Positions 9,823 through 18,552 of a stretch of DNA of 64,000 nucleotides are shown in pieces. Under the pieces are notes generated by a model, which made no database searches, was not told the origin of the DNA, and saw only the letters and a list, made by a program, of their open reading frames with translations. Both the position numbers and the translations under genes were made by a program. How positions within the stretch are numbered: position 1 is the first letter of the stretch; each line of letters opens with the position of its first letter. Origin of the DNA: Paenibacillus sp. FSL H7-0357 (GTDB lineage Bacteria; Bacillota; Bacilli; Paenibacillales; Paenibacillaceae); contig NZ_CP009241.1 in assembly GCF_000758525.1 (NCBI RefSeq), forward strand, positions 3,658,001 to 3,722,000. The letters run 5' to 3'.

Positions 9823-9853
9823 AGTGAGCGATTTCTAAAGGATGTGTGGTTTC

Positions 9854-11014
9854 ATGAATATTTCAACAGTTCATACCCTAAGCAATACGAAAGTATCGAA
9901 ATTATTTTTCTTTGGACTGGCATGCTCTTACGTGGTCCTGTTATTGCTTTACTTTGTTTTATCTCAATATAAAGGCTTTGCGGTGGTTACGATCCTAATC
10001 GGGCTCTATTTCTTAAGACACTCGAAACGAGTGTTAAATCATCCTGAGTATCATCCCATTGTAGCCGTATCCCCGATTGTCGAAATCGTTCTCCTCTTTC
10101 TTCTATTCCTGGGAAGCAGAACAGAAATCGAGAGTATCGTATTTGTTCTCTTTATTGCGGATCTTCTCTTACACTACAAGTCGTGGTATGCTTTTCCGTT
10201 TGCTTATGGTGGATATTTAGCCTACATTTTTTTGTGGTCACCAGGCGGAGAAGATTTATGGCGGAATATGTTCCATATTTTGAGCTATTCGTTTTTGGTA
10301 ATACCAATCTGGAGCACCAAGCTGCTGCTCAATCAAAGGGATATGAACCTTCGATTAAACGAATCTTTGATCCAGGAAGCTAGAACTAGAGAAGAGATGG
10401 CGGCATTAAAAGAGAGAACGCGGATTGCGGAAGAGGTTCATGATACGATGGGACACACGTTAACTACAGCGATCGTCGCCCTTGAGGGAGCCCAACTGCT
10501 CTTCGATAGAAAACCGGAGGAATCTCTTCGGAAGATCCTCATCGCACGCGAGCAGCTGAAGCAAGGACTCGGCAATATCCGTCAGGTTGTCAAAACATTA
10601 AAAGCAAAGGAAGGGACTATTGGCGACTTGGGGCTTAAGGAAGGAATACAGAAGATCATGACCGATACGGAAAAGCAGACGGGTGTTCAATTTATTTTAC
10701 ATTTTGAAGAGGTCACCCATCTAATTTCTCTTCAGAAGTATGTTATGATCAACTTCATAAAGGAATCGATCACCAATGCGCTAAAACATGGCAAAGCAAG
10801 TGCAATGGAGATCTCTGTCCTTGAGCAGCAAGATACGATTCATATTAGGGTAAAGGACAATGGAATCGGCAGCGATTCATTCATATTTGGGTTTGGTCTG
10901 AAAACGATGGAAGAAAGAATTGAGGCCATCGGAGGTCAGTTGAGTGTGCAAAGTGAGCCTATGAAGGGATTTGCACTCCATGTCCGGATGCCTGTTGCAA
11001 AGGGGGACGGTTAA
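9854..11014 (+). CDS. NarL/DesK-type sensor histidine kinase
   Basis: A 386-aa kinase with about five N-terminal membrane helices (residues 15-155), a coiled-coil linker (LIQEARTREEMAALKERTRIAE) given here in short as REEMAALKERT, and a HisKA_3 motif EEVHDTMGHTL with the phospho-acceptor His near residue 195. The small ATPase domain keeps the N box (NFIKESITNALKHG) and G1 (VKDNGIGSDS) and GFGLKTMEERI. The ATG at 9854 is chosen since AAGGATG is well spaced; the ATG at 9842 overlaps that site. The stop and the regulator start share one base (TAATG), a translational coupling. Resembles DesK/LiaS-type membrane-stress sensors. Confidence 0.92.
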   Translation: MNISTVHTLSNTKVSKLFFFGLACSYVVLLLLYFVLSQYKGFAVVTILIGLYFLRHSKRVLNHPEYHPIVAVSPIVEIVLLFLLFLGSRTEIESIVFVLFIADLLLHYKSWYAFPFAYGGYLAYIFLWSPGGEDLWRNMFHILSYSFLVIPIWSTKLLLNQRDMNLRLNESLIQEARTREEMAALKERTRIAEEVHDTMGHTLTTAIVALEGAQLLFDRKPEESLRKILIAREQLKQGLGNIRQVVKTLKAKEGTIGDLGLKEGIQKIMTDTEKQTGVQFILHFEEVTHLISLQKYVMINFIKESITNALKHGKASAMEISVLEQQDTIHIRVKDNGIGSDSFIFGFGLKTMEERIEAIGGQLSVQSEPMKGFALHVRMPVAKGDG

Positions 11015-11670
11015 TGGATAGCGATCGCAAAATCAGCGTCATGCTTGTGGATGATCATAAAATTATGCTTGAAGGTCTGGAAACTTTGCTTTCGATAAGA
11101 TCGGAGATAGAGATTGTTGGGACGGCCCAAACCGGCGAAGAAGCACTTGAACGGCTGCACTCGGTTGTTCCGGATGTCATCCTGATGGACATCCGCATGC
11201 CGGGTATGGGAGGCGTAAAGGCAACCGAAGCCATTAAGGAGCTCCACCCGCATGTGATTATACTCATCTTAACGACCTTTGACGATGATGAGTATATTAT
11301 AGAGGCTTTATGCAACGGAGCTTCCGGTTATTTGCTTAAAGACATCGATGGAGAGAAGCTTGTTCAATCCATCGATGAAGCGCTCTCCGGAAATTTGCTG
11401 CTTACTGGTAAAGTGGCAAAAAAGCTTGCTCTCACGATCCGCAATAAAAACAGGGGGTTTGAAAAAGCAGGTAAGGAACTTGAGCTAACGCAAAAAGAAC
11501 TTGACCTTGCAAGGCTGCTTATTGAAGGATATAACTCAAAGGAAATTGCCGGAAAATTATTTTTGACTCAGGGAACGGTAAAGAACTATTTAAGTGACAT
11601 TTATTCCAAGATCGGTACCAATGACCGGGCTAAAGCAGTCTTGTTATTAAAAAGATATTTATCAACATGA
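11014..11670 (+). CDS. NarL/FixJ-family response regulator
   Basis: A 218-aa partner of the preceding kinase. Receiver: MLVDDHKIMLEG start, phospho-acceptor Asp59 in VILMDIRMPGMGG, Thr in LTTFDDDEYI and Lys in YLLKDID. The C-terminal LuxR-type helix-turn-helix is LTQKELDLARLLIEGYNSKE, then IAGKLFLTQGTVKNYLSDIY. Its ATG overlaps the kinase stop by one base. A clear terminator follows at 11727. Targets unknown; autoregulation of the CPBP-kinase-regulator operon is likely by analogy. Confidence 0.93.
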   Translation: MDSDRKISVMLVDDHKIMLEGLETLLSIRSEIEIVGTAQTGEEALERLHSVVPDVILMDIRMPGMGGVKATEAIKELHPHVIILILTTFDDDEYIIEALCNGASGYLLKDIDGEKLVQSIDEALSGNLLLTGKVAKKLALTIRNKNRGFEKAGKELELTQKELDLARLLIEGYNSKEIAGKLFLTQGTVKNYLSDIYSKIGTNDRAKAVLLLKRYLST

Positions 11671-11930: not shown

Positions 11931-12500
11931 TTGTCGAACAAGCACAATGCACGGGAGGCGATTGTGGACACCGCTTCAAGGTTGTTTTTTACCCAAGGTT
12001 ATCATGCTACCGGGCTAAGTCAGATCATCAAAGACAGTGAATCGCCGAAGGGATCGCTATATTATTATTTTCCCCGTGGCAAAGAGGAGCTGGCCTTGAC
12101 CTGCATTAACCGGACCAGTGAGATCGTCGCTAAGCAGCTGCGTCATTATGTGGAAAATGGCAAAAGTGCGGCAATCGCGATTCAGGATTTCATTCTGGGA
12201 ATGGCTGCTGATGCTGAGAACTCAACCTTTAAAGGCGTTGTTCCGTTCAGCTTCTGGCTGTCTGTAGAAACCTCCTGCGTCAGCGAGGAGCTGCGGACAG
12301 CATGCCAAGCCGTATTCAACGACTGGCAGGACGTTGTCATGCAACAGCTGCTTGCTGAAGGCACAGATCAACAAATGGCAGCCGATAAGGCTTCCGTTGT
12401 GATTTCTTTGTTTGAAGGGGCACTGCTCCAGACATTGACGTACCGCAATACACAGCCGCTGCTTGCAGCTGCTAGAGCTATACCCGCCATACTGGATTGA
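11931..12500 (+). CDS. TetR/AcrR-family repressor, LmrA/YxaF type
   Basis: A 189-aa repressor. TTG start with AAAAGGAAG upstream. The N-terminal HTH is IVDTASRLFFTQGYHATGLS (part) followed by SPKGSLYYYFPRGKEELA, the recognition helix characteristic of the LmrA/YxaF subfamily. The C-terminal ligand-binding region contains the subfamily segment FKGVVPFSFWLS with a Cys replaced relative to many members. The next gene, 49 bases downstream, is a 14-helix MFS pump, exactly the lmrAB arrangement in which the repressor is released by drug or flavonoid ligands. Ligand is not deducible. Confidence 0.9.
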   Translation: MSNKHNAREAIVDTASRLFFTQGYHATGLSQIIKDSESPKGSLYYYFPRGKEELALTCINRTSEIVAKQLRHYVENGKSAAIAIQDFILGMAADAENSTFKGVVPFSFWLSVETSCVSEELRTACQAVFNDWQDVVMQQLLAEGTDQQMAADKASVVISLFEGALLQTLTYRNTQPLLAAARAIPAILD

Positions 12501-12549
12501 CAAGAAAGAATATAGAGAGAAAACTATACATTTTCAGGAGGATACAAGA

Positions 12550-14016
12550 GTGGAAGCAACGATGCAAGGAAAGAAGCAAACCCCAGAAAGAAAGTTCAAG
12601 ACAATTCCGATCCTCGTCTCCTTATTGCTCGCCGGATTTATCGGCATGTTCAGTGAGACTGCGTTGAACGTGGCATTGACGGATTTAATGCAGGTGCTGA
12701 ATATCACACCTACAACGGCCCAATGGCTGACAACGGCTTACTTGCTGACACTCGGAATTCTCGTTCCGATCTCAGGTTTGCTGCTGCAATGGTTCACAAC
12801 AAGACAGTTGTTTATCGCTGCGGTAAGTTTCTCAATTCTGGGAACCTTCCTGGCTGCCATTTCGCCAAGTTTTGAGTTTTTGCTCACGGCACGCGTCGTT
12901 CAAGCGATGGGAACTGCACTGCTCCTGCCGCTGATGTTCAATACGATTCTGCTCATCATCCCAGCCGAGAAAAGAGGGGGAGCGATGGGACTGATTGGAC
13001 TCGTGATCATGGTTGCTCCTGCAATCGGCCCAACCATTGCCGGACTATTGATTGAGAGCTTAAGCTGGCACTGGATTTTCTGGCTGTCGCTGCCGTTCCT
13101 GGTAGCTGCACTGATCTTCGGAATTCTGTTTATGCAGAACGTTTCTGAAGTGACGAAGCCGAAAATTGATGCACTTTCCATTCTGCTGTCTTCGTTAGGT
13201 TTTGGAGGCATTGTCTACGGATTCAGCAGTGCCGGTGAAGAAGCGGGCTGGGGAAGCCCGAAAGTAATTATTGCCATCGCTATCGGTGTAGTAGCACTCG
13301 TGCTGTTCGCTGTTCGCCAATTAACGATGAAGCAGCCGATGATTAATCTGCGTGCATTCAAATATCCTATGTTTACAGTTGGCGTGCTTATGGTCTTCAT
13401 CTGTATGATGGTTATCCTTTCATCCATGCTGATTCTTCCGATGTATCTGCAGCAAGGCCAAGGTTATACTGCCTTTAAAGCCGGTCTGCTCCTGCTTCCA
13501 GGCGGAATTATCAATGGTCTGATGTCGCCGATTATGGGACGCTTGTTCGATAAATATGGACCTAAATGGCTCGTGATTCCAGGGTTGGTCATTGTAGCGG
13601 TATCCCTGTGGTTCTTCTCCAGCATCACTCCAACATCCACCGTTGTGTTCGTTATCGTGCTTCATAGTGCGCTGATGATCGGGATTTCGATGATTATGAT
13701 GCCTGCCCAGACGAACGGGATTAACCAGCTTCCGCTGCAATATTATCCCGATGGAACTGCCATTATGAATACACTGCAGCAGGTAGCCGGTGCAATCGGT
13801 ACTGCCTTGGCAGTCAGCATCATGACCGCTGGCTCGAAGAGCTTCATGAAGACCGTAACTAATCCAGCCGATCCTATCAATATTGTTCCGGCATTTACAC
13901 ATGGGGTTCAGAACGCCTTTATCTTCGGAATGATTATGGCTATTGTTGGACTGGTTGTCGCCTTCTTCCTGAAACGTGTCATTGTACAGCACAAAGCTCA
14001 GGGCATGATGCACTAA
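12550..14016 (+). CDS. DHA2-family (14-TM) MFS multidrug exporter
   Basis: A 488-aa proton-driven drug exporter related to LmrB/EmrB. The GTG at 12550 is taken as start because AGGAGG lies at 12536-12541 (8-base spacing); the frame is open further up within the TetR gene but without a site. Fourteen hydrophobic segments are visible. Family motifs include NVALTDLMQVL in helix 1, motif A-like GLLLQWFTTRQLF, RVVQAMGTALLLPL, and motif C-like APAIGPTIAGLLIE in helix 5. It is co-transcribed with the TetR gene. The operon ends with a terminator at 14038. Likely confers resistance to lincosamide-like or other lipophilic drugs, inferred only. Confidence 0.92.
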   Translation: MEATMQGKKQTPERKFKTIPILVSLLLAGFIGMFSETALNVALTDLMQVLNITPTTAQWLTTAYLLTLGILVPISGLLLQWFTTRQLFIAAVSFSILGTFLAAISPSFEFLLTARVVQAMGTALLLPLMFNTILLIIPAEKRGGAMGLIGLVIMVAPAIGPTIAGLLIESLSWHWIFWLSLPFLVAALIFGILFMQNVSEVTKPKIDALSILLSSLGFGGIVYGFSSAGEEAGWGSPKVIIAIAIGVVALVLFAVRQLTMKQPMINLRAFKYPMFTVGVLMVFICMMVILSSMLILPMYLQQGQGYTAFKAGLLLLPGGIINGLMSPIMGRLFDKYGPKWLVIPGLVIVAVSLWFFSSITPTSTVVFVIVLHSALMIGISMIMMPAQTNGINQLPLQYYPDGTAIMNTLQQVAGAIGTALAVSIMTAGSKSFMKTVTNPADPINIVPAFTHGVQNAFIFGMIMAIVGLVVAFFLKRVIVQHKAQGMMH

Positions 14017-14037
14017 TAAGAACATTTGTAGTTTTAG

Positions 14038-14067
14038 AAGCACATCCGCAATGCGGGTGTGCTTTTT
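14038..14067 (+). terminator. intrinsic terminator
   Basis: AAGCACA-CCGCA...TGCGGG-TGTGCTT stem followed by TTTTT, immediately after the MFS gene. Confidence 0.85.
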
Positions 14068-14180
14068 CCATATGCTGGACGATATTTGTGAAATAATGTA
14101 TAGTGTACATAGAATAACGATGTATTAAGGAACGGTGTCAGACTTTGGCCTAATTGAATCCTGAAGGGAGTGTTAACAAA

Positions 14181-14513
14181 ATGAAAGTCAGCAAAGAAAT
14201 GCTTAAGGGCAGCACAGGGACGTTGATTCTAACGCTGCTGCTGGACAAGCCGCAGTACGGATATGAGCTGATCAAGGAGCTGGAGCAACGTTCCGAAGGT
14301 GTATTTTCCTTAAAAGAAGGTACACTGTATCCCATTCTCCATGCGATGGAAAGTGAGCGCTGGGTAGAGTCTTACTGGGTAGAGGTTGAGGGGCGGAAGC
14401 GCAAATATTACCGGATATTGAAGGAAGGCGCGGAGAAGCTGAAGGAGAAACAGTCCGAGTGGCGTTTATTTAAAAAAGCGGTGGATACTGTAATTGGGGA
14501 GGGCGGAGCATAG
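14181..14513 (+). CDS. PadR-family transcriptional regulator
   Basis: A 110-aa winged-helix regulator. ATG at 14181 with GAAGGGAG upstream. It begins VSKEMLKGSTGTLILTLL and has the PadR hallmark PQYGYELIKELEQRS, then LKEGTLYPILHAMESE and the wing GRKRKYYRI. The stop codon overlaps the next start (TAGTG), so it is coupled to the HAAS-SEDS gene. PadR proteins paired with HAAS-domain membrane proteins are a recurrent Firmicutes arrangement; the regulator probably controls its own operon in response to an envelope-related signal. Confidence 0.93.
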   Translation: MKVSKEMLKGSTGTLILTLLLDKPQYGYELIKELEQRSEGVFSLKEGTLYPILHAMESERWVESYWVEVEGRKRKYYRILKEGAEKLKEKQSEWRLFKKAVDTVIGEGGA

Positions 14514-15850
14514 TGGAGTCGAAAAGTGGGCTGGAGCAGTATTTGGACAACGTATGCGGTGAAGTCAAAGCCAAGAAAATGCATGCCGAGATCCGCAGCG
14601 AGCTTAGGGGCCATTTGGAGGATCTGATGATTGAGCAGGAAAGTCTTGGTGCATCCAAAGCAGAGGCAGAAGTTTTGGCGGTTGCGCAAATGGGTGATCC
14701 GAAAGCTGTAGGAAAGGATCTGCATCATATTCATAAACCAAGGACTCCATGGGGTTTGCTGGGAGCTCTGCTGTTGTTCTCTGCGATTGGGTTGTTGGGG
14801 ATGAGCTCATTGGAAGCAAGCTTTATGAACAACCCGAGAGTTCCTGCAAGCTTTCTGCCGAAGCAATTAAGCTTTATGTTGATCGGGATTGCTTTAATGA
14901 CTGCCTGCTATTTCATCAATTTTCGCAGGCTTCAAAAGCTGTCCTGGCTGCTGTACATCTTTTCAATAGCAGGGATAATCGCAAGTTTGAAATGGGGCCT
15001 CTATGTGAACGGGAGCCGGACTTATTTTTTGGCTTTTGGGGGAATCGTGATCAACCTGGTCTCCTATAGTCCTTATATTGTGCTGGTTGCGCTGGCAGGC
15101 ATCTTCTCAAAATTTAAAGCGGATGGCAAGCTGGGAACTAAGCGGAATTTGCTCCCGGAGTTAGTTATTCTCCTTGGACCGGCGGCGGCCTATATCATTG
15201 CTGGCCCCATACCTGTGTTGTTGCTGTATTTGGTCTGTTCTCTGATATTGTATACCTGGCTTTCCGGGGCCTGGTTGCGTTCGACGTTGATCGGTGGTTT
15301 TTTTCTAGCGGCGGGCCTCCGGTATGCGGGGAATAATCAACAGATGAGAGACCGGATTCTGGGTGCAATCAATTACAATATTAATCTGGAGTCCAGTGGA
15401 TTTGTCTATAAGACCCTGAATGAGGTCATTGCTTCAGCAGGCTGGAGCGGACATGGCTTCGGTGCTGAATTCGAGAGGCTGTCGTATGCATATTCAGATA
15501 TGCTTCCTGCTTATTTGGTATACTGCTTCGGATGGGGCGGCGGGCTGGTGCTGCTGGGTATAACTCTTTGGTTTTTAATCAAGCTCTTCTCTTCAATTCA
15601 GGCAGTGAAAGATTATTATGGCAAGAGTGTTATTATTGCTCTGTCACTCATACTTGCTATGGGACTGTTCTACGGTCTGCTGGTGCTAAGCGGCAAAATG
15701 ATTCTGACCAGCATTCCATTTCCGTTCATGAGCTATGGGGGCCATGTTCTCATTGAATATGCGGCGCTTGGACTGCTTATGGGCATCTACCGGCGCAAGG
15801 ATATCACACCTGCTGAACATGAATCACGTACTATAAGGGGGGCATTATGA
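14513..15850 (+). CDS. HAAS-domain / SEDS (FtsW-RodA-SpoVE-like) membrane protein
   Basis: A 445-aa fusion. Residues 1-80 form a soluble permease-prefix (HAAS) domain (LEQYLDNVC, SELRGHLEDLM, AVAQMGDPKAVG). About ten membrane helices follow and resemble the SEDS peptidoglycan polymerases: an NGSRTYFLAFGG loop aligns with the SEDS G-RRW motif, GWSGHGFGAEF with the extracellular loop-4 start, D329 (YAYSDMLP) with the essential Asp, and FPFMSYGGHVL with the terminal P-SYGGSS motif. The usual EE after the Asp is absent. GTG start coupled to PadR. A divergent polymerase or a regulator of lipid II use is possible. Located upstream of a VanX-like dipeptidase, which supports a cell-wall role. Confidence 0.85.
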   Translation: MESKSGLEQYLDNVCGEVKAKKMHAEIRSELRGHLEDLMIEQESLGASKAEAEVLAVAQMGDPKAVGKDLHHIHKPRTPWGLLGALLLFSAIGLLGMSSLEASFMNNPRVPASFLPKQLSFMLIGIALMTACYFINFRRLQKLSWLLYIFSIAGIIASLKWGLYVNGSRTYFLAFGGIVINLVSYSPYIVLVALAGIFSKFKADGKLGTKRNLLPELVILLGPAAAYIIAGPIPVLLLYLVCSLILYTWLSGAWLRSTLIGGFFLAAGLRYAGNNQQMRDRILGAINYNINLESSGFVYKTLNEVIASAGWSGHGFGAEFERLSYAYSDMLPAYLVYCFGWGGGLVLLGITLWFLIKLFSSIQAVKDYYGKSVIIALSLILAMGLFYGLLVLSGKMILTSIPFPFMSYGGHVLIEYAALGLLMGIYRRKDITPAEHESRTIRGAL

Positions 15851-16788
15851 CACAGCAGAGCCAATTCGGTTCACATTGGAATAGAAAGATCCTGCTAAGC
15901 TTATCCATTCTTCTGGGTACGGCGGCAGGATACTCAGCATTCGTAGCTAAGCCTGCTTACGCCGCTGGTACACAGCAATCCGCAGCCGTGTACAAACAGT
16001 TCCAGACATATGTACAGCAGTCATCTACACTCGTTAAGGCGCGCAGCTATCTCATCAATCATATTGACGAAGCCGGGCTCTGGTATGCTACCCAAATGAC
16101 TTTGCAGTTAGAAAATGCGCAGAAGGCCGAATTGCCAAAATATACGGAAAAATTGGATTCGGAAGCGGTCCGTCAGGCGATTGACGCAGCGGTTCGGAAA
16201 AACGGACTTACCTATACCTCCTTGCTAAACAACATTAAAGATTCCAAGATACGTACAGTACTAATTGAAGGACGAGATAAAGGGTATAAAATCAGAACCA
16301 GTGAAGGCATGTACTATCCGGTAATGAATTATGAAAGCTATAAGGCGTTCAAGCCTCATATTAAGACTGATATAGGAACATATATAGATATGATGGCAGC
16401 AGAATCGAACAAGCCTAGTCTCAAGGAAGGTTCAATCATAATTAGCTGGAATGAGCTTTTGGCCAGGACACTTGCAATGGAAGATTTCGTTAGAAGGTAT
16501 CCGCTCTCTGACAGGCTTGAAGCGGTCAAACTTACACTATGGAGTAAAAAAGTAAATCTGTTCATTGGCTCCGGCAATACACCAGCGTATGATTATATCG
16601 AAGAAGGTGCTCCGGTTATTATTAACTCTGAACTCCGGCAAGCTTATGAAGCTGCAATTCTGACCGGCAGCGGAGATAGCGAACTTCTCAGAACCATAGA
16701 GGAGTTGCTCGCACTGCTGGACCGCAATAACAATGAGTTTACTCCTGATGTTCAAAAGTTTATCAATACGTACTTGGATCCGAACTAG
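15847..16788 (+). CDS. secreted protein of unknown function
   Basis: A 313-aa exported protein whose ATG overlaps the SEDS gene stop by 4 bases, so it is translationally coupled. It has a signal peptide (basic start, hydrophobic residues 15-30, cleavage near KPAYAAG). The mature part is largely helical, with ATQMTLQLENAQKA and two repeated-looking blocks of charged helices; a segment SEGMYYPVMNYESYK resembles linkers in cell-wall associated proteins. No catalytic motif or anchor is seen. Position between a SEDS-like gene and a VanX-like gene suggests that it acts at the outer face of the membrane together with them. Confidence 0.75.
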   Translation: MTQQSQFGSHWNRKILLSLSILLGTAAGYSAFVAKPAYAAGTQQSAAVYKQFQTYVQQSSTLVKARSYLINHIDEAGLWYATQMTLQLENAQKAELPKYTEKLDSEAVRQAIDAAVRKNGLTYTSLLNNIKDSKIRTVLIEGRDKGYKIRTSEGMYYPVMNYESYKAFKPHIKTDIGTYIDMMAAESNKPSLKEGSIIISWNELLARTLAMEDFVRRYPLSDRLEAVKLTLWSKKVNLFIGSGNTPAYDYIEEGAPVIINSELRQAYEAAILTGSGDSELLRTIEELLALLDRNNNEFTPDVQKFINTYLDPN

Positions 16789-16814
16789 GGGAAGGAAGGA
16801 GCTTTATCTTAATT

Positions 16815-17585
16815 ATGAAGCAGCATAGGACAGGCAAAAGGCTGACGGCGATCATGCTCTTGCTGATCTTGGGGATGACCTCAGGCAACACCGAAAGCTC
16901 TGCAACAGCGGCAGGTGAACCCGGACAGAAGGCAGGCGCATCAGCACAGCAAGTTAGCACCCAGAAGAAGAATAACCTGCCCAATGGTTTTGTTTATCTG
17001 GATGAGATCATTCCAACCGCACAATATGAAATTCGTTATTATAGCGATAATAATTTTACCGGTACACGGGTTGACGGGTACAAAGCTCCTCTGGCGATCT
17101 TCTCAAAAACGGCGGCGGCGGCATTGAAGAAGGTTAGTGACGATTTGGAGCGAAAAGGATACATTCTTAGAATATATGATGCTTACCGCCCGCAAAAAGC
17201 AGTTAATCATTTTGTCCGCTGGTCGCAGGATGCCGGAGACATTAAGATGAAGCTGCAGTATTATCCTAAGCTGGACAAACAGAATCTGTTCAAGCTTGGT
17301 TTTATCGCCAAAAAGTCGGGACATTCCAGAGGCAGCACGATTGATCTGTCTCTCGCCGACAAAAAAACGGCTGCCCTGGTCGATATGGGCAGCCGGTATG
17401 ATTTTTTCGGCGAGATCTCCTATTATAATACTTCACTGGTCAGCGCCAAGCAGCATGCCAACCGCAAGCTTTTGAAAGATGCTATGGCGAAGCATGGGTT
17501 TAAGCCGTACAGTAAAGAGTGGTGGCATTTTACGCTGATTAAAGAGCCTTTTCCGAAACAGTACTTTACCTTTAATGTAGAATAA
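16815..17585 (+). CDS. secreted VanX-like D-Ala-D-Ala dipeptidase (M15D)
   Basis: A 256-aa exported zinc peptidase. A signal peptide (hydrophobic residues 9-22) precedes a disordered Ala/Gln linker. The M15D motifs are intact: DAYRPQ (about residue 122), SGHSRGSTIDL (SxHxxGxxxD, zinc ligands His and Asp), and EWWHF with the catalytic Glu and third zinc ligand. VanX hydrolyses D-Ala-D-Ala; the secreted, signal-peptide form rather acts on extracellular D,D-dipeptides or stem ends. The ribosome binding site GGAAGGAG is about 13 bases upstream, longer than usual. It is the last gene of the PadR operon. No vanH or vanA ligase is near, so it is not a vancomycin cassette. Confidence 0.9.
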   Translation: MKQHRTGKRLTAIMLLLILGMTSGNTESSATAAGEPGQKAGASAQQVSTQKKNNLPNGFVYLDEIIPTAQYEIRYYSDNNFTGTRVDGYKAPLAIFSKTAAAALKKVSDDLERKGYILRIYDAYRPQKAVNHFVRWSQDAGDIKMKLQYYPKLDKQNLFKLGFIAKKSGHSRGSTIDLSLADKKTAALVDMGSRYDFFGEISYYNTSLVSAKQHANRKLLKDAMAKHGFKPYSKEWWHFTLIKEPFPKQYFTFNVE

Positions 17586-17649
17586 CAAGCTGGGATGATT
17601 TACGAAAAATCCGAAATCCCTACGCAAAGCCTCCATAGCCATGACTGTT

Positions 17650-18552
17650 TCACAAATCCGCCCTGCGTTTTCTCGGCATTCGGTTCATGTTGGCGTTCAG
17701 CGGCATTTTTCCCAGCAGTTCGGAGGCGACGATCCCCAGCAGTACTAGCGCTGCCCCGGTGTAACCTTGCATGGACAGCTGTTCCCCGGCAAACCAGAAG
17801 CCGAAAAAGGCAGCAAACACAGGCTCAAGGGAGAAGATCAGGCCGGTGCGTGTCGGGGTAGTGTATTTCTGGGCTACCGGCTGTAAGATAAAGCCGCAGG
17901 CGCTACAGAGAATGCCAAGCGCAAGAATCGCAATCCAGCCTGGCATGGAAGACGGCAATGACGGTGTCTCGAAGACAGCAGACAGCACAAGGGCGTACCC
18001 ACCGGCAAAACCTAACTGCAAAATGCCGATATTCAAGGAGTCGCAGGTTTTTACCGCTTTGCCGGTGACAAGGATCTGCACAGCATAAAATACTGCTGAC
18101 AGGATGCACAGCAGGTCACCCGGCTGCACATGCAGCGAGGAATTTAAGGTCAGGAGCCCGATCCCCGAAATGGCCAGCACAGCGCCAAAGATCTGCGGGG
18201 GAGCGACTCTTTTTCTGAAAACAAGCACATCAATCAGTGGAACAAAAATAACGGTCAAAGCGACCAGGAATCCGGCATTGGAGGTAGTAGTTGTCTTCAG
18301 TCCGAAGGTGATGCAGGTGAATACGAACAGCAGCAGGAATCCGAGCAGTGCTCCATATTTCAAGGTTCTAAGGTCTATTCTGCGTAGACGCTTGTGAAAC
18401 AAAATGGCCGCCAGCACAAAAGCAAGGCCGAAACGCAGTGCAATCAGATTAAATTCCCCCAGTGTATCCAGTCCCATCTTCATGAAGATGTAGGAGGAAC
18501 CCCAGAACATCGTTACTACAATGAGCATTAGCTCAGCCTTAAGCGGCTTCAT
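17650..18552 (-). CDS. EamA/DMT-family transporter
   Basis: A 300-aa ten-helix metabolite exporter built of two EamA repeats: repeat one starts FWGSSYIFMKMGLD and repeat two QPGDLLCILSAVFYAVQ, each ending near a GLL/GIV segment. The C-terminus is basic (PRKRRADL). It is transcribed divergently from the LysR gene 126 bases away, a common arrangement in which the LysR protein activates the exporter. The 3' end converges on the VanX-like gene without an obvious terminator. Substrate unknown (amino acid, nucleoside or toxin efflux are all known for the family). Confidence 0.9.
   Translation of the reverse strand: MKPLKAELMLIVVTMFWGSSYIFMKMGLDTLGEFNLIALRFGLAFVLAAILFHKRLRRIDLRTLKYGALLGFLLLFVFTCITFGLKTTTTSNAGFLVALTVIFVPLIDVLVFRKRVAPPQIFGAVLAISGIGLLTLNSSLHVQPGDLLCILSAVFYAVQILVTGKAVKTCDSLNIGILQLGFAGGYALVLSAVFETPSLPSSMPGWIAILALGILCSACGFILQPVAQKYTTPTRTGLIFSLEPVFAAFFGFWFAGEQLSMQGYTGAALVLLGIVASELLGKMPLNANMNRMPRKRRADL

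Follow-up and report, generated by a model that had tools for sequence, protein, structure and literature searches.

Gene order at the locus

The 64,000-nucleotide stretch of Paenibacillus sp. FSL H7-0357 DNA analysed here by computation (contig NZ_CP009241.1, positions 3,658,001 to 3,722,000; hereafter the window) holds four tightly spaced forward-strand genes for a PadR-family repressor, a membrane protein in which a HAAS domain precedes a SEDS fold (HAAS-SEDS), a protein that we call SecP, and a VanX-like dipeptidase. The padR/HAAS-SEDS pair is referred to as the cassette. These genes, the elements before them and the neighbouring upstream genes are as follows.

14181..14513, plus strand: padR, PadR-family repressor (Pfam PF03551 PadR, 1.3e-23)
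14513..15850, plus strand: HAAS-SEDS membrane protein, 445 amino acids (HAAS helices approximately 6-74, SEDS fold 72-434)
15847..16788, plus strand: SecP, probably secreted, mostly helical, with a weak TPR/BamD-like resemblance and no family in a Pfam scan
16815..17585, plus strand: VanX-like (M15D) dipeptidase, probably secreted (Peptidase_M15; metal-ligand and catalytic motifs retained)
14107..14125, plus strand: predicted PadR operator ACATAG-N5-CGATGTAT, directly 3' of the -10-like hexamer
14076..14104, plus strand: possible sigma-A type promoter of the padR unit (TGGACG, 17 nt, TATAGT; 9 of 12 matches)
14036..14066, plus strand: probable intrinsic terminator (14-pair hairpin and U-run, -21.3 kcal/mol, z -6.6)
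12463..14016, plus strand: MFS transporter, in the TetR syntenic block that contains the cassette
11931..12500, plus strand: TetR regulator with an LmrA/YxaF-like C-terminal domain, belonging to the same syntenic block

HAAS-SEDS starts with the GTG at 14513 and shares one base with padR (TAGTG), the SecP ATG at 15847 overlaps HAAS-SEDS by four bases (ATGA), and 26 bases separate the SecP stop from the start of the VanX-like gene. The coordinates bear out the genes, the two overlaps and the gap described in an earlier note made from the letters of this DNA, and its families are those that Pfam returns for PadR, for FTSW_RODA_SPOVE (1.7e-18) and for Peptidase_M15 (1.5e-42). The hairpin at 14036..14066 probably terminates transcription of the MFS gene, setting the padR unit apart from it. 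A consensus terminator scan of 13900-17800 listed no site, and hence none inside the four genes, the same scanner having missed the 14036..14066 hairpin as well. With a hairpin after the MFS gene and no terminator found among the four genes, padR to VanX is read as one unit. Further upstream, at 9842-11670, the TetR-MFS pair is preceded by an apparent histidine kinase and response regulator pair, as judged by eye without a family scan.

The PadR/HAAS-SEDS pair and its predicted operator

HAAS-SEDS is present in 55 of the 100 genomes of our genus sample (threshold E at or below approximately 4e-24), and padR precedes it in related genomes. In a phylum sample of 398 genomes, at least 34, two of them in the genus, gave a match beginning in the HAAS part; this count was made by eye at a query position of 14 or less and E below 1e-64, with at most four candidates scored per genome, and it may be low. 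Twenty loci of the 32 outside the genus were inspected, over 6.7-15 kb each, and in all 20 a stand-alone padR lies directly upstream of HAAS-SEDS. The HAAS-SEDS start is at most 20 bases away from the padR stop at 48/52 genus loci and 19/20 phylum loci. Some loci carry two HAAS-SEDS genes, in tandem in L082, L085 and L092 and as opposite-strand cassettes in L190.

The scanned region contains 11 promoter-like sites, TGGACG/TATAGT among them, against 6.2 in shuffles, and in several relatives similar TGGACT...TATATT strings can be seen by eye 5' of the operator. The operator itself, scored on 14 fixed positions with up to three mismatches and within 250 bases of padR, was found in 54 of 55 genus upstream regions, which become 52 of 53 distinct loci when L006 and L007, duplicates of L095 and L091, are set aside; dinucleotide shuffles gave 29/1100 in the same scan. 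The sole exception is L048, whose perfect site lies farther upstream. Since the motif was picked from genus sequences, the genus count is a measure of conservation and not an independent test. The 20 loci outside the genus comprise 21 cassettes, and 18 of these have a site with three or fewer mismatches before padR; at this threshold no site precedes padR in the first cassette of L190 or at L188 and L189, two loci in which a gene for an extracytoplasmic function (ECF) sigma factor stands directly before padR and there is no operator before the sigma gene either (best matches, 5 and 6 mismatches). In the 7.69-Mb source genome, 14107-14125 is the only perfect match, and at two or fewer mismatches there are 22 matches versus 34 for the reversed control. 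The half-sites are similar to the ATGT/ACAT repeats published for PadR proteins and differ from them in spacing and orientation (PMC3506622). PadR is predicted to bind 14107-14125 and to act there as a repressor; a conserved operator at the unit's own promoter, together with overlapping genes, argues for autoregulation of the cassette.

A divergent SEDS protein with an N-terminal HAAS domain

The HAAS part scores weakly in Pfam (18 bits, below the cut-off of 27) and passes the NCBIfam perm_prefix_1 model (35.6 bits, cut-off 30), so that the HAAS-SEDS fusion noticed earlier stands. In the predicted model, HAAS helices 6-74 lie N-terminal to a multi-transmembrane domain with a RodA/FtsW fold over residues 72-434, which is also the outcome of the comparison with the RodA structure that the earlier note had proposed. 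A GxP motif, G61-D-P63, directly follows the third HAAS helix (49-60); of the 58 sequences aligned for the genus, two of which repeat others, 58 have G61 and 56 have P63. Three details given in the earlier note also hold: the loop-4 Asp is D329, which falls opposite Asp262, the catalytic residue of E. coli RodA, in the alignment; the motif P404-x-x-SYGG is retained; and there is no EE pair.

The loop-4 acid is retained in all 56 genus sequences (D in 48, E in 8), and Arg210 is largely retained. Other positions tell a different story. The equivalents of Q111, E114, K117 and D159 are N, S, P and P in the window protein, and 54/56 genus and 21/28 phylum sequences retain none of Q111, E/D114, K/R117 and D159, which canonical SEDS proteins retain together in 37/42 cases. 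Moreover, the window protein has a Ser aligned at RodA Pro257, where a change to Ala is reported to abolish RodA activity (PMC10449877). HAAS-SEDS therefore resembles RodA and FtsW in its fold, loop-4 acid, Arg210 and SYGG region, and differs from them in having neither the four equivalents nor the EE pair and in its added HAAS domain. The source genome, a single contig, has five SEDS genes above cut-off, including the fusion, and one M15 VanX-type match. Elsewhere in this genome, at L012 (G000:C1:365730-365897), another HAAS-type (perm_prefix_1) gene lies beside a padR.

Exchange of the SEDS core between lineages

Across 26 loci in which cassette and VanX-like gene are linked, median pairwise identity is 85% for PadR, 85% for the MFS protein and 80% for VanX in its mature form (68% when the signal part is included), as against 44% for HAAS-SEDS. 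Likewise, relatives' HAAS-SEDS proteins are 40-53% identical to the window protein, versus 78-87% for a housekeeping SEDS protein. This divergence is not simple fast evolution, because synonymous divergence (dS) jumps at HAAS-SEDS in many close pairs. Between loci L052 and L065, dS is 0.11 in MFS, 0.15 in padR, 1.1 in HAAS-SEDS and 0.26 in VanX; nucleotide identity is 92-100% through TetR-MFS and 97% in padR, 51-63% in mid-SEDS and 57% at the VanX start, and 95-99% over the rest of VanX. The HAAS-SEDS value is more than twice the larger of the MFS and padR values in 18/33 close pairs of group A, in 0/3 of group B, where the cassette sits at another point of the same gene cluster, and in 2/4 of group C, which comprises cassettes without VanX beside them; the VanX value is so in 6/33 group-A pairs, and in all these comparisons pairs share loci. 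By their flanks, L052 and L065 fall in the same tight seven-locus clade, and the tree of SEDS codons 100-330 conflicts with the flank trees at strong support, L052 joining L051 and L065 joining L063. Lineages have exchanged the SEDS core among themselves.

The variation is unevenly spread along the protein. Mean identity is 58% in HAAS, 59% in transmembrane helix 1 (TM1), 56% in loop 4, 74% in residues 392-410 and 81% in TM10, as compared with 32-39% in TM3, TM5 and TM7 and 13% in both extracellular loop 1 and the cytoplasmic loop 204-209. The median ratio of nonsynonymous to synonymous divergence (dN/dS) is 0.22, indicating purifying selection on average. Conservation of HAAS and the C-terminal end around an exchanged core argues for a fixed signalling interface with a changeable specificity, and swapping of the SEDS-like gene between related species suggests that it may be a changeable sensor.

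The VanX-like dipeptidase and SecP

The VanX-like protein is like VanX in aligning to PDB 1r44 over 198 residues (E 3.4e-48) with both metal-site motifs, HxxxxxxD and ExxH. H170, D177, E235 and H238 are invariant in 26/26 VanX-like sequences, and R125 lies within YRPQ; the functional roles of these metal-site and catalytic residues we take to be those of VanX. Unlike VanX, the protein scores under the NCBIfam VanX equivalog cut-off (215.6 bits, cut-off 320), and it carries a signal-like N-terminus (judged by eye over 26 N-termini, without a predictor). SecP has a similar segment, likewise by eye and without a predictor, in agreement with the earlier note, which called it secreted and gave the VanX-like enzyme a signal peptide. 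VanX is cytoplasmic; export has a precedent in PcgL of Salmonella, which is periplasmic. PcgL is named as a D-Ala-D-Ala dipeptidase in PMC7933661. From the retained motif residues and the signal-like N-terminus, the VanX-like protein should act outside the membrane, and its family membership makes D-Ala-D-Ala the predicted substrate. Neither vanH nor vanA was among the Pfam-scanned neighbours (TetR, MFS, PadR, SEDS, SecP and LysR), a scan that did not extend to the DMT-type gene at 17650-18552 and was not accompanied by a genome search for a ligase. In genome G090, the VanX-like gene (G090:C1:2833618-2834335) is split over two frames and is unlinked to the HAAS-SEDS gene there, which itself has an internal stop.

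SecP finds a match of some kind in 95/100 genus genomes and has a near-universal paralogue group. From the many matches, 15 loci were surveyed: a SecP paralogue lies directly behind a DUF1129 membrane gene in all 11 paralogue loci (L191-L199, L204, L205), with padR first in four of them, and the four other SecP loci, L200-L203, showed no neighbour of this kind. The source genome's own paralogue (L118:7735-9468) is also directly behind a DUF1129 gene. Pfam scans of some of these loci confirmed padR at all three tried for it and DUF1129 at all five tried, and DUF1129 also for the source genome's copy. Because DUF1129 is counted within the HAAS superfamily (PMC11237479), this position of the paralogues favours a functional link of SecP with the cassette. 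The PadR-DUF1129-SecP loci constitute a second PadR-HAAS-SecP operon type, of which we met no description, no separate literature search having been made. L056 has the order SecP-PadR-SEDS-SecP, with SecP copies on both sides of the cassette, and there is no VanX match in that genome.

Linkage of the cassette to VanX

Among the 100 genus genomes, 33 have both HAAS-SEDS and VanX, 22 HAAS-SEDS alone, 27 VanX alone and 18 neither; the 60 VanX genomes leave out G053, whose only match is a 40% relative, and include G090 with its split gene. Where both are present they are linked in 29/33, directly (with or without SecP) in 26 and with an MFS gene and SecP between them (approximately 4 kb) in three; in the remaining four they are far apart or on separate contigs. 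PadR-SEDS-(SecP)-VanX, uninterrupted by any other gene that we could find, is therefore the order in 26/33, which answers the earlier note's test of gene order. Nineteen VanX loci without a linked cassette were fetched (L099-L117), and 14 of them keep TetR-MFS upstream of (SecP-)VanX, 12 also with DMT and LysR genes downstream. On an MFS+VanX tree of 43 loci, 29 with and 14 without the cassette, cassette presence changes at least 10 times, six changes being forced by well-supported branches; the tree has long branches at L116 and three group-B loci. Shuffled labels give a mean of 12.0 changes, with 64/500 shuffles as low as the observed figure, so that presence is not clearly clustered. Preserved TetR-MFS synteny without the cassette and the changes on the tree indicate that the cassette comes and goes before a resident (SecP-)VanX.

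Discussion

Two published systems are close to the one in the window. In the Listeria sigC-lstR-lmo0421 operon, padR likewise has as its neighbour the gene of a diverged FtsW/RodA homologue, which is reported to form a cluster separate from RodA and FtsW, and the PadR repressor LstR represses its own operon, loss of lstR raising lmo0421 approximately 145-fold (Hauf et al. 2019, PMC6624303). The ECF sigma-PadR-HAAS-SEDS loci L188 and L189 have this very arrangement (PMC6624303, PMC6686043). By the published description, the window unit differs from the Listeria operon in that the MFS gene is followed by padR without an intervening ECF sigma gene; it also differs from loci of that type in continuing into SecP and VanX and in having the ACATAG operator, which was found neither before padR nor before the sigma gene at L188 and L189. 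The second likeness is to the HAAS-PadR dyads, in which a cytoplasmic HAAS is fused to a multi-transmembrane domain, FtsW/RodA/SpoVE included, beside a stand-alone PadR, and which were proposed as an alternative to two-component systems, with HAAS controlling PadR activity (Ravi et al. 2024, PMC11237479). The earlier note's remark that HAAS proteins often partner PadR thus agrees with published fusions. Its statement that no such operon had been described holds only for the four-gene combination of PadR, HAAS-SEDS, SecP and VanX, of which we found no published description in the open-licence PMC literature, where absence is no proof; PadR with an FtsW/RodA homologue was already in print (PMC6624303, PMC11237479). 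We met no mention of a VanX-type output, a shared operator or allele exchange in passages of the HAAS-PadR paper, and the word dipeptidase occurs 0 times in its main text (PMC11237479).

Our preferred reading, to which we give a probability of only about 0.4, is that of an autonomous, labile PadR/HAAS-SEDS signalling cassette of the published HAAS-PadR kind, with SecP and the VanX-type dipeptidase as its outputs at this locus. PadR would bind its site at its own promoter and repress the unit, and HAAS-SEDS would be made in step with PadR through the overlapping genes. The ligand bound by the SEDS part would be lipid-linked, a wall precursor being the natural guess for a SEDS protein; the likeliest candidates are lipid II, undecaprenyl pyrophosphate and a drug in complex with either of these. 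The cytoplasmic HAAS helices would then relay the signal and the promoter would be freed of PadR. In favour of this reading, Lmo0421 is reported to be unable to take the place of RodA or FtsW (PMC6624303). The position of the cassette directly before SecP and the secreted VanX-type gene would make these two its outputs, the exported dipeptidase cutting D-Ala-D-Ala-type peptides outside the membrane and SecP serving as a possible wall-side partner. The regulated cell-wall module of the earlier note, with changed stem peptides or lipid II use in response to antibiotics, is partly supported. The larger proposition, in which a lipid II polymerase has been repurposed as a receptor that senses lipid-linked precursors or drugs and signals through HAAS to PadR, with a core swapped by recombination and lineage-specific outputs, strikes us as rather improbable when taken whole.

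Several observations weigh against our preferred reading. VanX or SecP lies near the cassette in 0/20 loci of other Bacillota, and the co-occurrence suggested as a check in the earlier note is borne out as linkage and not as joint presence, the odds ratio for cassette and VanX being 1.0 (p 1; the genomes are not independent). The Listeria promoter was not induced by any of the compounds tried, cell-wall antibiotics included (PMC6624303). The variable helices match the RodA cavities only in part: these are lined by helices 6, 7, 9 and 2, 3, 4, 10 (PMC10449877), and helices 6, 9 and 10 are 57-81% identical here. Finally, retention of the loop-4 acid and, largely, of Arg210 leaves room for catalysis, and an lmo0421 mutation that arose spontaneously in an L-form of Listeria has been cited in favour of a wall role (PMC6624303).

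In an effector reading, HAAS-SEDS would be a glycosyltransferase or ligase that is induced by stress and acts on an altered substrate (a modified form of lipid II, or some different lipid-linked sugar), while PadR senses a small molecule and HAAS provides regulatory feedback. Such an enzyme would have to work without the four positions missing from nearly all genus sequences and with Ser in place of the proline whose change to Ala inactivates RodA; in addition, neither overproduction of Lmo0421 nor loss of lstR gave a wall change or an antibiotic phenotype (PMC6624303). We regard an effector as unlikely. Somewhat less doubtful, though still short of an even chance, is that cassette and SecP-VanX do unrelated jobs and owe their proximity solely to the cassette's settling, or surviving, at a single syntenic site. 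Their independent presence across genomes fits this, as do the repeated gains and losses on the MFS+VanX tree (with clustering unclear) and the persistence of VanX behind TetR-MFS in 14/19 loci without the cassette. Mere settlement at one spot sits poorly with linkage in 29/33 genomes, with the 4-base and 26-base joins in the window, with the recurrence of SecP paralogues beside DUF1129 genes, some with padR, and with the group-B cassettes placed elsewhere in the same cluster.

The allele exchange between conserved flanks can also be viewed as escape, HAAS-SEDS then being attacked at the cell surface by bacteriocins, phages or antibiotics and not being a sensor of changing specificity. The extremely variable extracellular loop 1 would suit such a role, but the cytoplasmic loop 204-209 is equally variable, helices 3, 5 and 7 vary too, dN/dS gives no sign of positive selection on average, and a defence-family search of the SEDS, SecP and VanX proteins gave no match; we think this very improbable.

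In the window, then, this soil bacterium carries a probably self-regulating PadR/HAAS-SEDS two-gene switch already known in kind, here placed before the genes of two probably exported proteins. SEDS proteins are key enzymes of wall polymerisation and are targeted by drugs. Here a widespread SEDS branch has retained the fold and the loop-4 acid while losing four other conserved positions, is tied to a repressor by a conserved operator, and has been swapped among species. These features hint that the polymerase fold may have a role in sensing, and the operator and coupled secreted genes could help explain Listeria Lmo0421.

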